Positions 24,790 to 37,049 of a stretch of DNA of 64,000 nucleotides are shown here, piece after piece (the first letter of the stretch is position 1; each line of letters opens with the position of its first letter). Made by a program: the position numbers and the translations under genes. The stretch lies in contig JAEURN010000006.1 of NCBI GenBank assembly GCA_016789105.1, positions 124,001-188,000 on the forward strand, in the 5' to 3' direction. A model generated the notes under the pieces. The model saw only the letters and a list, made by a program, of their open reading frames with translations, was not told the origin of the DNA and did no database searches. Source of the stretch: Armatimonadota bacterium. GTDB taxonomy: Bacteria; Armatimonadota; Fimbriimonadia; Fimbriimonadales; Fimbriimonadaceae.

Positions 24790-24871
24790 ATGAGGCTTCC
24801 TGCTCTTACCCCCCCTCATCGCCGTTCTCACTCCACCAGCGCTCGCTCTGAATTCGAATGGTGAATTTCCT
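24790..24871 (+). other. out-of-frame signal-peptide start of the cysteine-rich gene, broken at a C7 tract
   Basis: An ATG at 24790 opens a frame coding MRLPALTPP and then hits a run of seven C (24809-24815). Read on in that frame it stops after 24 codons. Skipping one base in the tract gives a classic signal peptide (LIAVLTPPALALNSNG) joined in frame to the cysteine-rich protein at 24872. So either the tract has gained a C, in nature or in the assembly, or expression depends on slippage. TACAAT lies seven bases before the ATG, compatible with a leaderless start. Confidence 0.6.
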
Positions 24872-25300
24872 TTGTTGCCAATGTCTCACTCTGGTTTGAC
24901 TTCCGATGCCTCATGCAGTAGCCAGAAAGTAACTGCCGTCGGCCCGAGCGACATTTCGCCTGAACTCATGTTCAAGATGATCTCGCTGGATTACGATGCT
25001 GCAACTGAATCCACGCCCGCATGCCCAACGGATTGCACAGAGCAGACGTGGACTTGGAACGCCTGTATCAGAGTTCAAGATAATCCGTTACTCTGTGTTA
25101 AGTGGACGCATGGTGTTCATGTTTACTATTGTTCAGGTGCCACCTACTACAATTGCGACGGGTTTTCTTGGGTGAATACCGGTATTTACTGCGAGAACAC
25201 TTCTCGACCTGGAGTCTTGGGGTGCAACCCGACCAATCCTAGCGAATTGCCTCAAGGTTGCGTTCCGCCTGTCCTCAGCGGGTGGGAATATTGTGATTAG
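24872..25300 (+). CDS. cysteine-rich, probably secreted protein of unknown function
   Basis: The in-frame open stretch codes 142 residues from the first ATG and contains 11 cysteines, many spaced 7-12 apart, with abundant Thr, Tyr and Trp (TEQTWTWNACIRVQ, VHVYYCSGATYYNCDGFSW). Such composition suggests a disulfide-stabilised extracellular protein. The real start is probably at 24790, one base out of frame (see the preceding entry), because only that supplies a signal peptide. It overlaps the next gene by eight bases, forming a three-gene cassette with a membrane protein and a prepilin. No family recognised. Confidence 0.6.
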   Translation: MLPMSHSGLTSDASCSSQKVTAVGPSDISPELMFKMISLDYDAATESTPACPTDCTEQTWTWNACIRVQDNPLLCVKWTHGVHVYYCSGATYYNCDGFSWVNTGIYCENTSRPGVLGCNPTNPSELPQGCVPPVLSGWEYCD

Positions 25301-25826
25301 CCTGAGAACCCTCAGTTCCAGCAATCCAAGAAGCAACTGGGTGACAAGGGTTTCCCTGGCGGTTTCCTGCTCGGCCTTGTCGATCTCACTCTTCGCCTAT
25401 CTCGCCAAGGCGGTTCTCGATGTCCCCTTCCAAGTCATGGCTCGCAACGCGGCGGGGCTGAGACCCTTGCCGTTTCGGGAATCTTTCCAGTTTGCAACGG
25501 CATGGCAAGGGGCAACATGGAATGTGATGGCCTGGTGGCTGGCTTTGTGCATCGCCGGAAGCTCTATAACATTACTGATCGATCCGAGTCCATCCATAAA
25601 GAATGTCGCCAAGAGGATGGGATGGGCTTTCCTCATTTCGGCTAGTTGTTATTGGATTTATCCCTACGCGGTAAACCCGAAGCCTTGGCGAGTTGTTGGC
25701 GACTTGGGAACTGCTTATCACATCGTATACCACATGCCGCTCGTGCTGGCGACGGTTCTCGGCGCCCTTTTGGCCGGAACGTACTACTTAGGTTTTGAAA
25801 GGTTGATATGGAAAGAAGAGCTCTAA
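25293..25826 (+). CDS. four-helix membrane protein of unknown function
   Basis: A 177-residue protein with four predicted TM segments: about residues 17-40 (SLAVSCSALSISLFAYLAKA), 72-95 (VMAWWLALCIAGSSITLLI), 109-127 (MGWAFLISASCYWIYPYA) and 142-165 (MPLVLATVLGALLAGTYYLG). Start is GTG at 25293 inside the end of the cysteine-rich gene, and the stop lies 19 bases inside the prepilin gene, so the three are translationally coupled. Not recognised; a role in export or anchoring of its neighbours is only inferred from linkage. Confidence 0.6.
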   Translation: MISLRTLSSSNPRSNWVTRVSLAVSCSALSISLFAYLAKAVLDVPFQVMARNAAGLRPLPFRESFQFATAWQGATWNVMAWWLALCIAGSSITLLIDPSPSIKNVAKRMGWAFLISASCYWIYPYAVNPKPWRVVGDLGTAYHIVYHMPLVLATVLGALLAGTYYLGFERLIWKEEL

Positions 25827-26422
25827 CCCTCCCCGAACTCCTGGTCGTTGTGACAATCGTTGCCGTCCTTGCCAGGCTCCTGATGCCCGTATTCGCATCG
25901 GCCCGCAAACGGGCTCTGATCGGCGTTTCAACTTCGAACCTCAGGCAACTCGCGCAGGCTCAGAACTTGTATCTGGCTGATTCGGATGGCCGGGAACCAG
26001 TGGATTTGCAGGCCGTCGACCCTTATGTCAAGGAAGACCGCATTTATCTTTCACCCCTCGACCCTGAAATGGGTTTCAACATGAAGTTGACAAAGAAGTT
26101 TGGCAAACCGGTCTCCTATTTCTGGTCGAACAGCTACTTGGGGCACTTCGGCGGTGATTTATCCGATGTTGCCGTTTTTGTGGACGTTTTGATCGGGGAA
26201 CAAGTGAGGACTCAAGCGCCAGGGCAGCTGGGCTCTTACAAAGGCAACGTCCTCCGGGCCATGCGCGATACGTCCGTCAAATCCAAACCGGTGCCCCACA
26301 AATGTGCCGATGCGGGCGGCGGCCAGCTTGTCGGACGGCCGTTTTGGGTTGTGTTCACCGACCGACCGTGCCCGCCGGGGATTTGCCCCGCAGGAAGCAC
26401 CGATTGCGAACCTAGTCCTTAG
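25808..26422 (+). CDS. prepilin-like protein with N-terminal methylation motif
   Basis: A 204-residue type IV pilin-like protein. The class III signal is short, MERRA, cleaved before LTLPELLVVVTIVAVLARLL, with Glu at +5 and a hydrophobic helix. It continues with SNLRQLAQAQNLYLADSDGR, a pattern shared with the many prepilin-like proteins of planctomycetes and armatimonads (DUF1559-like). The C-terminal tail has five Cys (HKCADAGGG...RPCPPGICPAGSTDCE). It would be matured by a prepilin peptidase (not in the window) and assembled in or held at the inner membrane. Last gene of the cassette; convergent overlap of 11 bases with the DUF192 gene. Confidence 0.8.
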   Translation: MERRALTLPELLVVVTIVAVLARLLMPVFASARKRALIGVSTSNLRQLAQAQNLYLADSDGREPVDLQAVDPYVKEDRIYLSPLDPEMGFNMKLTKKFGKPVSYFWSNSYLGHFGGDLSDVAVFVDVLIGEQVRTQAPGQLGSYKGNVLRAMRDTSVKSKPVPHKCADAGGGQLVGRPFWVVFTDRPCPPGICPAGSTDCEPSP

Positions 26423-33946: not shown

Positions 33947-34573
33947 TCACCTGGGTCGAGTAAGAGCTTCTTGGACAGCTTCAAATGTTTGGCATTGATA
34001 CATGTTGCCCGTCGCATTGTCGTAAACATAGACCGTCGGGGTGCTGGATACTCCGAGGGAATTTGCAACGGAGCGCACTTTGGAGAGTGCAGTCCTTGGC
34101 TTTTCTCGCCAATTTGAAACTGAAGAGTCCAGTTTCAAAGTCCACTGCATCGCTAATGTAGCACATGAACCTTCGTTGCAGCTAAGTTCCTTGGCGTGGA
34201 AAGCATCGAGTTCGCGATCTTGCAAAGCCAAACTAATCAATGCAAGGTTGCTAGCATTGGAGTGCATTGAAAGCGGAAAATGACAACGATAGACTGCGAT
34301 ATCAAACCTTGTCTCAAGCTCCTCTAACTGTGGAACAAGTTTGCGGCATGGAGGACACTCGTAGTCGAAGAATTCGTACAATTCATATCTGGTGACTGAG
34401 CCACCTTGAGGCTGTGAATGGCACGACCTCAATGCGGTCAAGAAAGGGGCCACTTTTCCAGAAGCGACAATTAATGCAGAATTGGAAACAACCCTTCGAG
34501 AGGCAAAAATGGCTGCACTTAACAAGCAACTAATGAAAAAAATATATATGACAAACTTTTCGTGCTTATGCAT
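33947..34573 (-). CDS. membrane-anchored DsbA-like thioredoxin
   Basis: A 208-residue oxidoreductase with an N-terminal membrane anchor (FVIYIFFISCLLSAAIFA) and an extracytoplasmic thioredoxin domain. Active site CPPC at residues 73-76 (FFDYECPPCRKLVPQLEEL), and the cis-proline loop is SSTPTVYVYD. The inserted helical part contains NASNLALISLALQDRELDAF, as in the DsbA/DSBA-like thioredoxin_4 group (BdbD, Com1). It has several extra Cys (LSCNEGSC). The ATG at 34573 clears the prepilin gene by seven bases. Likely to make or isomerise disulfides in exported proteins; the cysteine-rich neighbour is an obvious candidate client (inference). Codon use is AT-richer than flanking genes. Confidence 0.82.
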   Translation of the reverse strand: MHKHEKFVIYIFFISCLLSAAIFASRRVVSNSALIVASGKVAPFLTALRSCHSQPQGGSVTRYELYEFFDYECPPCRKLVPQLEELETRFDIAVYRCHFPLSMHSNASNLALISLALQDRELDAFHAKELSCNEGSCATLAMQWTLKLDSSVSNWREKPRTALSKVRSVANSLGVSSTPTVYVYDNATGNMYQCQTFEAVQEALTRPR

Positions 34574-34580
34574 GATAATT

Positions 34581-35180
34581 TTAAAAATTGACCGGAGGGT
34601 ATAAAGTGCGGCATGCATCGGCAAAGTCAAACAGCTCAGCGTATCCCGCAAACTTTGTCTGACCACCGATGAACGTTGTCATCCATCTCTGCTTCATCGT
34701 TCTTGGTAACTGGCCATTGTCGTGCAAAAAGGAGTTTCTTTCGTAAAATACGGGACAATTTGCATCATATTCGGATAATGGCCCAGCGGCAAGATGATCA
34801 AGCGCAAAAGACAGGGAAGTTTCATATTGCCTATAGTCTTCTAACCCTTTGCCAACGGGGACAATGACCAGATCTTCCTTGTATCCATAGGGTTTCAACG
34901 CAACCTTTATGGAAGGAACAGTGCTCGATATAGCACAGCTTTGCGAGGTGCAAAAATCTGTGGCATAAGCTGTTCGGTCATCGTAATCAGTTGCATATAA
35001 GACGAAGGCACGATTCAGTTGCGACAAATTTGAGGCAACAACGGTTCTGAATCCGCCCCTTTTGGCACTGTTGTAGACTGGAAACACAATTGCGGTAAGG
35101 ATCACAATGATTGCAATGATGGAAAGCAGTTCAACAGCTGTAAATGCTAGTGATTTGTCTTGGTAAGTCCTTTTGGCCAT
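34581..35180 (-). CDS. prepilin-like protein with N-terminal methylation motif
   Basis: A 199-residue type IV pilin-like protein. Leader MAKRTYQDKSLA, cleavage before FTAVELLSIIAIIVILTAIV with Glu at +5. The next segment, SNLSQLNRAFVLYATDYDDR, matches the same stretch of the prepilin at 25808 (SNLRQLAQAQNLYLADSDGR), so the two are paralogues. Four Cys, including CTSQSC. Seven bases upstream of the DsbA-like gene. Maturation would need a prepilin peptidase, which is not in the window. Confidence 0.8.
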   Translation of the reverse strand: MAKRTYQDKSLAFTAVELLSIIAIIVILTAIVFPVYNSAKRGGFRTVVASNLSQLNRAFVLYATDYDDRTAYATDFCTSQSCAISSTVPSIKVALKPYGYKEDLVIVPVGKGLEDYRQYETSLSFALDHLAAGPLSEYDANCPVFYERNSFLHDNGQLPRTMKQRWMTTFIGGQTKFAGYAELFDFADACRTLYPPVNF

Positions 35181-35655
35181 GATTTCATTTCTTCTGCCAG
35201 CTTTGGAAATGGTCCAACTTTAACCATTTGAATGTACGATTCGTGTTTGGCAGGACTCAGCATCCAGAGAGTCATCGCGGTTCCTTGCTGGTATTCCGCT
35301 ATTGTGGCTTTGTTTAGGTTGGGTTCAATGTAAGAGGCCCACTGGCGTAGTACTCTTTTGGAAGTCCTCGCTAGATTGCCATGTAGACGGGACCCTGCGC
35401 TTGCTCCTTGCCGGTGTCAAGGACTCTTTTCAACACGGACAGATCCTTTGCATTCAACTGGGGGCTTTCCATGGTTGAAGCGCGGTTGATTATCGGAAGG
35501 GCTTCTGCCCACAAGTCTTCGGCGACTCCGCTTCTTTAACTGAAATCTCTAATACTCTTCTTGTGTTGCGCTACTTGTTTGGTCAACACATCTGCCACAA
35601 ACATCGCAAGCCCAATCACCGCGATGATAACAGCCGAGATGATTGCTAATCGCAT
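35147..35655 (-). pseudogene. broken gene for a membrane-anchored protein
   Basis: Three coding-like pieces follow one another. From the ATG at 35655: MRLAIISAVIIAVIGLAMFV and on to an in-frame TAA at about 35536. In the same frame past that stop: SGVAEDLWAEALPIINRAST up to GPVYMAI and a TAG near 35372. Then in another frame LRQWASYIEPNLNKATIAEY to VKVGPFPKLAEEMKSW, ending at 35147. Joined, they would give a roughly 165-residue protein with an N-terminal TM helix. One nonsense codon and one frameshift are needed, so it is either decayed or affected by assembly errors. Family unknown. Confidence 0.5.
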
Positions 35656-35668
35656 AGTGCCTGTTCCA

Positions 35669-35905
35669 TTATGAGCAATCAGGCCAGTTGGGGTCAAATT
35701 TTCGATCACAGCACGAACGACATGCTTCTTGTCCACCAGATGTTAGGCAACTATCCGAACAACAGTCGACACAGGATTCGTAATCTGGTTTTTGCTTACA
35801 AGGCATTGCACAAGATGGCCAAATGACGGCGGCTATTGCATAGGTTACGATGAACGCGGAAAAACCTAGAACGAGTGAGAATCGGGTGAACTGGGACTTG
35901 TTCAT
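35669..35905 (-). CDS. small cysteine-rich membrane-anchored protein
   Basis: 78 residues: a TM or signal-anchor helix (FSLVLGFSAFIVTYAIAAVIW) followed by an extracytoplasmic domain with ten Cys in about 45 residues, including pairs CVDCCSDSC and CRSCCDRKF. Start ATG at 35905; an open extension upstream runs through a G8/C8 tract but adds nothing recognisable. It stops 13 bases before the broken gene and is the first gene of the island's minus-strand group ending in the DsbA-like protein. Family not recognised; disulfide-rich fold or metal binding are both possible. Confidence 0.6.
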   Translation of the reverse strand: MNKSQFTRFSLVLGFSAFIVTYAIAAVIWPSCAMPCKQKPDYESCVDCCSDSCLTSGGQEACRSCCDRKFDPNWPDCS

Positions 35906-35937: not shown

Positions 35938-35945
35938 GGGGGGGG
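35938..35945. repeat. G8 homopolymer tract upstream of the cysteine-rich gene
   Basis: Eight consecutive G on the plus strand (C8 on the coding strand), 33-40 bases upstream of the ATG at 35905. On the minus strand TACAAT and TATACT lie between the tract and the ATG, so a change in tract length would alter promoter spacing or the upstream frame. Confidence 0.6.
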
Positions 35946-36428: not shown

Positions 36429-37049
36429 ATGACCATGAAATCCCACTCCCGCGCCGGGCTCCTTTGCCTTGCCCTCGTCGCCACGTCGTCTGCCTTTGGA
36501 CAGCTCCTCAACCCGTCATTCGAATCGGGAACAGGGTCGTCCGCATCTAACTGGATCGCCTTTGGCAATGCGTTCCGCGAAAACGCTGGCGCCCACACCG
36601 GCGACTTTTCCATGAAGATGTTCGGCAATTTCTCCGGTTCGTTCAACGTTACCGGGGCCTTCCAAGATTTCGCCATCGGCGTCGGGCAATCCGCGTCGGC
36701 CAGCGTTTTTGCCCAAACCCTTTCGGGCGATAAGATGTCCGGTGGCAACCGGGCGTTGCTCAAGCTTATTTACCGCGACGCCGCCAACAACGACCTTCTG
36801 GCATCGGAATCGGCCTTCATCGATGCCAACACGGCTCCCGACACCTGGTTCGAACTGACGGCCAGCCTGGGCGCCGCCCCGGCCGGTACCGATCACGGTT
36901 CGGTCTTCCTGTTGTTCCTGCAAGAAGCCGACAATGCCGGCGGGAGCACGTTCTTCGACGATGCCTCTGTTTCGGTTGTGCCGGAGCCGGCGACCCTGGC
37001 GATCCTGGGCCTGGCCGGAGTTGCGGCCCTGCGGCGCAAGCGCAAGTAA
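36429..37049 (+). CDS. PEP-CTERM sorting domain secreted protein
   Basis: A 206-residue exported protein. Signal peptide GLLCLALVATSSAFGQ, then LLNPSFESGTGSSASNWIAF, the start of a carbohydrate-binding-like jelly-roll (a LNPSFE opening is common in such domains). The C-terminal tail is VPEPATLAILGLAGVAALRRKRK, the exosortase signal. The ATG at 36429 has a strong AGAGGAAAAC upstream; an ATG two codons later is an alternative. Preceded by tandem operator-like repeats and followed by a strong terminator, so it is a single-gene transcript under its own control. Confidence 0.88.
   Translation: MTMKSHSRAGLLCLALVATSSAFGQLLNPSFESGTGSSASNWIAFGNAFRENAGAHTGDFSMKMFGNFSGSFNVTGAFQDFAIGVGQSASASVFAQTLSGDKMSGGNRALLKLIYRDAANNDLLASESAFIDANTAPDTWFELTASLGAAPAGTDHGSVFLLFLQEADNAGGSTFFDDASVSVVPEPATLAILGLAGVAALRRKRK

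Follow-up and report, generated by a model that had tools for sequence, protein, structure and literature searches.

In the TcpF/TcpB and CofJ/CofB systems, a soluble protein is exported by attaching to a minor pilin of its own and exiting with the pilus; the soluble protein bears a signal peptide and is encoded with the dedicated minor pilin, and the pairs are specific and diverge together (PMC9565799). Here, we describe a three-gene cassette for a cysteine (Cys)-rich secreted protein, a small membrane protein and a prepilin, found in a stretch of 64,000 nucleotides from an Armatimonadota bacterium of the Fimbriimonadaceae (contig JAEURN010000006.1 of assembly GCA_016789105.1, positions 124,001 to 188,000 of the forward strand; hereafter, the window). 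As for cargo of the TcpF/CofJ type, the gene for the secreted protein adjoins that for a dedicated pilin. Unlike TcpF and CofJ, the soluble protein of the cassette is Cys-rich, it is accompanied by a membrane protein with three to five helices and often by a phase-variation tract, and genes for pilus assembly were not seen alongside the cassette. The two pairs are the nearest mechanism on record, and by analogy the cassette may work like them; it is not a member of their group.

Slipped-strand phase variation at poly-G/C tracts, translational or transcriptional, has been described in Helicobacter canadensis (PMC2823697). As in the contingency genes of this organism and of Neisseria (PMC2823697; PMC5953494), the tract lengths at the cassette vary between copies and set the reading frame; the known sets, however, come largely from host-associated bacteria and their genes are unrelated to those of the cassette. 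The Tad pili of Myxococcus, with exchangeable minor-pilin tips, are similar in that several alternative pilin-associated modules expose variable domains, but they involve the Tad machinery and predation, and no common Cys-rich cargo family is recognised (PMC12075869). Lastly, the Armatimonadota prepilins starting with a GFxxxE motif (TIGR02532) share with the cassette prepilin the N-terminal motif, the long helix and the N-terminal 60 residues, whereas the cassette subfamily is marked by its C-terminal domain.

Results

The trio is real and conserved; it represents an operon family that had not been recognised before and that bears a signature of phase variation. In the window, where it is flanked by nusA and a DUF192-like gene (neighbours named from the sequence), the trio is on the + strand and is formed by the genes for the Cys-rich secreted protein (24790..25300), a membrane protein of 177 residues (25293..25826) and a prepilin-like protein of 204 residues (25808..26422). 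BLAST-level searches covered 60 relatives, and profiles built from the first finds were then run on 113 genomes of the order. In the 60 relatives, homologues of the Cys-rich protein and of the prepilin adjoin in two other genera, with a similarly sized membrane protein, too diverged for sequence search, between them. When the Cys-rich profile alone was run on the 113 genomes, all 12 matches at E ≤ 4e-4 were followed on the same strand, after about 1 kb, by the cassette prepilin, and six of the 12 were absent from the seed alignment. This search is the independent test of the pairing, because many of the 28 distinct Cys-rich loci found in all were retrieved through the prepilin. At these 28 loci (29 rows, as one locus, with a split Cys-rich gene, was counted twice), the prepilin domain is found 493-1066 bp downstream, again on the same strand. 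No Cys-rich homologue lacking the cassette prepilin was found among the reliable matches; the prepilin and the membrane protein do occur without the Cys-rich gene.

The gene for the membrane protein is usually found between or beside the other two, and genes overlap in several copies of the cassette; the order is mostly Cys-rich, membrane, prepilin, with the prepilin ahead of the membrane gene in some copies. The same gene family, order, strand and spacing recur in three families within the order and in one further family elsewhere in the phylum. Of 291 genomes searched across the phylum, 37 have the prepilin family; beyond the order, it occurs mainly in one Armatimonadota family, at up to six copies per genome and with Cys-rich and membrane genes adjoining. 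The distribution within the Fimbriimonadales is patchy, and the cassette is nearly absent from the window's own genus: at E ≤ 1e-6, a borderline prepilin match, with a weak Cys-rich match upstream, is present in one of the seven congeners. A sigma-factor-like gene, with region-4 and region-2 matches below the Pfam cut-offs, is found directly upstream of several copies in two families, f2 and f19 (L100, 592-1107; L126, 584-1273; L213, 1-696; and L221). The view of the sequence-only reading that the three genes form a module is thus borne out by a conserved neighbourhood in relatives and by a pairing that exceeds chance.

Nor are the Cys-rich proteins unrelated, lineage-specific products: they form a single family with a common framework of about 12 Cys, five of which are invariant among 15 aligned members and five more present in 13 or 14 of the 15. 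In the window's protein, one framework position is occupied by Tyr. The signal peptide carries a motif, AN.....PHTLAAL, that is unusually conserved across two families (five loci). The C-terminal domain of the cassette prepilin has the signature DPNHG..VC.LHG...G..LRLR.DGSV...W.LFTD, and the window's genome carries about 56 prepilins with the N-terminal 60 residues in common. The earlier statement that no known system is recognised agrees with the family searches. For the Cys-rich and membrane proteins of the window, neither Pfam nor NCBIfam gave a match up to E = 1, and those of the relatives gave only sub-threshold chance matches (Shisa_N, 0.72; Rhomboid, 0.17). The search of defence families returned a single chance match (Csx1, E 0.013), and viral contigs contained no relative of the prepilin domain, so that there is no sign of phage carriage. 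The light chain of methylamine dehydrogenase, a small Cys-rich protein encoded beside a membrane protein, was considered as a candidate and dropped for want of a Pfam match.

The most telling feature of the family, overlooked by the sequence-only reading, is a G/C homopolymer that many copies of the Cys-rich gene have at their 5' end, either between the regions coding for the signal peptide and the mature part or just upstream of the start codon (NB: hereafter, a letter with one or two digits designates a tract by its base and length, and G with three digits a genome). The two parts of the gene are in frame through the tract in G035 (C11), G059 (G12), copy a of G058 (G15) and G183 (G10 and G7), and out of frame in copy b of G058 (G10), G111 (G9), G051 (G10), G184 (G9), G179 (G10), G056 (G9) and the window (C7); in G032 (G9), G014 (G10) and G062 (G12), the tract precedes the start codon by some 28 to 51 bases. 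Tracts of at least eight G or C were counted within the 400 bp that precede the Cys core and, as controls, in same-size windows downstream in the same loci; they were present in 11 of the 29 cassette rows but absent from all 149 control windows (Fisher, 3e-10). Relative to the genome-wide density, 10 tracts were observed in 15 cassettes and 0.10 expected (P ~1e-20); the expectation is derived from nine-base G words, which overcount runs, and the estimate is therefore conservative.

Related copies differ in the manner expected from the frame. The signal-peptide coding sequences of the two G058 paralogues are identical and the flanks nearly so, with G15 in the copy that is on and G10 in that which is off; likewise, G10 and G7 are on in G183 and G9 is off in G184. 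Where the Cys-rich gene is off, the frames of the membrane protein and of the prepilin remain open, and the ratio of nonsynonymous to synonymous changes (dN/dS) of the prepilin is low between G183 and G184 (0.134/0.789), which argues that the off-frame operons are not simply dead. Position and length of the tracts are those expected of slipped-strand phase variation, be it translational or transcriptional. Length differences between copies decide whether the gene is in frame; switching within a population is predicted. For the cassette family as a whole, then, a 5' or promoter tract is present beyond chance and its length sets the frame, as in contingency loci, with only C7 and C8 in the window itself. 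A scan for a sigma-70 consensus found no site before the first Cys-rich gene of the window and two weak sites upstream of the second one, in the 34-36 kb region (see below); at G032 none was found with a spacer of 16-18, and a TTGACA-15-TACTTT arrangement that spans the tract fails the spacer rule. Literature searches returned no report for Armatimonadota with phase variation and nothing relevant for Fimbriimonas with homopolymer.

Several other homopolymers were seen. The Cys-rich locus of G017 has C18 and C13 runs within a repeat-rich 5' region. An in-frame TAG in the Cys-rich genes of G017 and G035 was considered as stop-codon recoding; being isolated and absent from other copies, it was treated as decay. 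The window's genome has 23 runs of at least nine G, several of them about 10-60 bases upstream of the starts of small secreted proteins (six loci), one of which has nine Cys in 130 residues; this set suggests a wider group of putatively phase-variable secreted proteins. Contig ends of the same genome lie in very long homopolymers (G71, C67 and G44), probably assembly breaks.

In the window copy, the gene overlaps reported by the sequence-only reading, of eight bases at 25293-25300 and of 19 bases at 25808-25826, are present, and so are the 11 Cys of the first protein. This gene cannot, however, be read in a single frame from the ATG at 24790: the signal peptide, which begins MRLPALTP, is in one frame and the mature part (24848-25297; 150 residues, with all 11 Cys) is one frame on, the two meeting at a C7 tract on the + strand (24809..24815) inside the signal-peptide coding region. 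As assembled, the gene is off. The second product, with a GTG start, has the four hydrophobic stretches expected of the proposed four-helix membrane protein, and its gene overlaps both neighbours. The third has a prepilin-type N-terminus, with a cleavage/methylation motif containing Glu5 and a hydrophobic helix (TIGR02532, 20.7 bits over a cut-off of 16.3; PF07963, 17.2 bits, under its cut-off of 21.2), followed by the cassette-specific C-terminal domain; four Cys, rather than the five counted earlier, are in its tail. An AlphaFold2 model of this protein (predicted local distance difference test, pLDDT, 91) has a long N-terminal helix at residues 8-58 and a globular head. The prepilin peptidase family, PF01478, is above its cut-off in all six genomes tested.

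A second pairing, at 34-36 kb on the - strand, had been taken as another occurrence of the same module, with the two prepilins as paralogues. The prepilin encoded there (34581..35180) does match that of the cassette at 39%, but only over the N-terminal part that is common to the roughly 56 prepilins of the genome, which tells little. Both pairings are conserved; that at 34581 is nevertheless a different operon type and not a second copy, because it has a different Cys-rich family, a different second gene and a DsbA-like fourth gene. Its first gene codes for a small Cys-rich secreted protein of 77 residues (35672..35905), the ten aligned Cys of which are invariant in four genomes, and has a C8 tract (35938..35945) about 33 bp upstream of its start. 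The second gene, for a protein of about 175 residues, is a remnant in the window (35150..35529), broken by two frames, a stop and a gap. The operon type is conserved in three other genomes, G068, G076 and G008, in the order small Cys-rich protein, protein of about 175 residues (with an N-terminal hydrophobic segment) and prepilin, and a DsbA-like gene is the fourth in G068 and G076. The window's DsbA-like thioredoxin-fold protein (33947..34573) carries a CPPC site within an ECPPCR motif and matches PF13462 (E 9.8e-6; 26.3 bits over 23.2), with the PF01323 DSBA profile below its cut-off; its counterpart in G068 matches PF13462 at E 4.1e-9, and that in G076 is at the same place. It is likely to be the operon's own disulfide-forming enzyme.

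Two operon types in which a private prepilin appears to accompany an exported, disulfide-rich protein are the strongest support for the idea of a module. In a crude scan, 38 other prepilin loci of the window's genome (some overlapping) had no secreted Cys-rich neighbour, and the pairing therefore seems to be a property of particular prepilins. The C7 and C8 tracts at the two Cys-rich genes are two of the four G/C runs of at least seven bases in the window (chance ~1e-4, calculated post hoc). A PEP-CTERM protein (PF07589 above cut-off) is encoded at 36429-37049, adjoining the second operon.

Identity between related copies of the cassette is 67-100% for the signal peptide, 27-65% for the mature Cys-rich protein and 21-35% for the membrane protein; the latter two are hypervariable. 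For the prepilin, one family has values of 63-100% and one genus of 28-47%; in clade g35, the prepilin varies as much as the other cassette proteins. The membrane protein and the prepilin are found without an intact Cys-rich gene in G178, G013, G069, G041, G047 and G056; in G178, the Cys-rich gene is deleted right after the signal peptide and the other two genes are retained. An array in G183 (contig 3, 255500-264000) has one full unit, followed by two units of membrane protein and prepilin genes with no Cys-rich gene.

Discussion

We propose, at about even chances, that the cassette is a phase-variable export unit, in which a disulfide-rich exported protein is handled by its own pilin-like partner. 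The Cys-rich protein, made with a signal peptide, would cross the inner membrane and fold outside the cytoplasm with five to six disulfides. The dedicated partner would be processed by the prepilin peptidase, enter a type IV pilus or pseudopilus and carry or present the Cys-rich protein at the cell surface, by physical association, display or secretion, with the small membrane protein as a putative accessory for export, anchoring or assembly. Slippage at the G/C tract would switch the frame of the Cys-rich gene, or its promoter or leader, so that the cells of a population would differ in making the protein, and such switching would be under selection. The mature Cys-rich and membrane proteins would evolve rapidly while the signal peptide stays conserved, as under pressure from phages, predators or competitors; the cassette thus probably produces a surface or secreted factor that varies. 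At the level of sequence, this proposal draws on the signal peptide, the Cys framework, the operon, the pilin fold, the peptidase, the switch-type tract, the hypervariability and the one-way dependence on the prepilin neighbour: handling of the exported protein by a pilin would fit a Cys-rich gene that, among the reliable matches, is not found without the prepilin, while the prepilin does occur without it.

A number of observations weigh against the proposal. The model of the Cys-rich protein is poor (pLDDT 59), fold searches with the models of this protein and of the prepilin gave nothing significant, and the Cys-rich profile A6 matched no PDB sequence at E ≤ 10, TcpF and CofJ included; no sequence similarity of TcpF/TcpB or CofJ/CofB to the cassette was found. 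A long tract is missing in about half of the cassettes (families f5 and g19, and the second copy of G032), and the lengths were read from assemblies, in which homopolymer errors are possible. The window copy itself is a weak example of the cassette, off frame and with a tract of only C7, and its prepilin has lost the conserved His of LHG and Gly of the DG motif, along with two Cys that are conserved elsewhere; because of the short tract and the missing residues, this copy may be decaying.

The hypervariability also lends itself to a different explanation, which we regard as unlikely, namely a polymorphic toxin with its immunity protein. The Cys-rich protein would be a small secreted toxin acting against close relatives, the membrane protein would confer immunity, the prepilin would serve in delivery or docking, and phase variation would spare cells the cost of the toxin. 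It is exactly the presumptive toxin and immunity proteins that are hypervariable, behind a conserved signal peptide, yet in clade g35 the prepilin is equally variable. Loci with the membrane protein and prepilin and no intact Cys-rich gene are as expected of orphan immunity genes; in an operon with translational coupling, however, turning off a toxin encoded by the first gene could reduce immunity too. The patchy distribution, with at best one weak match among seven congeners, and the lack of reliable Cys-rich matches without the prepilin are in line with a toxin, but no match to toxin or defence families was found. A shade more doubtful still is the wider idea of a new class of phase-variable, pilin-associated antagonism systems, in which rapidly diversifying disulfide-rich toxins, each with its cognate membrane immunity protein, and a dedicated exporting or docking pilin would be shuffled behind a conserved leader and switched by poly-G/C tracts.

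It is improbable that the tracts reflect programmed frameshifting or homopolymer sequencing errors in place of phase variation, the cassette being an ordinary, constitutive, pilin-associated secretion unit. Assemblies alone were read, homopolymers are error-prone on some platforms and the tract in the window is short (C7), but tracts are also found upstream of the start codon in G032 (G9), G014 (G10) and G062 (G12), where recoding has no meaning. Moreover, the lengths of 7, 9 and 10 in related copies and of 10 and 15 in paralogues obey the frame rule, and errors cannot explain the presence of the tracts, 10 observed for 0.10 expected. That lineage-specific Cys-rich genes lie by chance near prepilins, abundant as these are (about 56 in the window's genome), is very improbable, being already contradicted by the search with the Cys-rich profile alone and the spacing at 28 loci, by the gene family, order, strand and spacing shared among three families within the order and a further one elsewhere in the phylum, and by the 38 other prepilin loci (some overlapping) without a secreted Cys-rich neighbour in the crude scan.

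For the Armatimonadota, part of the unexplained, large expansion of prepilins gains a function-shaped handle, in that some prepilins appear to have a private exported partner. Phase variation is indicated in a phylum for which our literature search gave no report of it, and two families of disulfide-rich proteins without a recognised fold are brought to light. If the pilin does carry the Cys-rich protein, the logic of cargo and tip pilin represented by TcpF and CofJ would extend far beyond the enteric type IVb pili.
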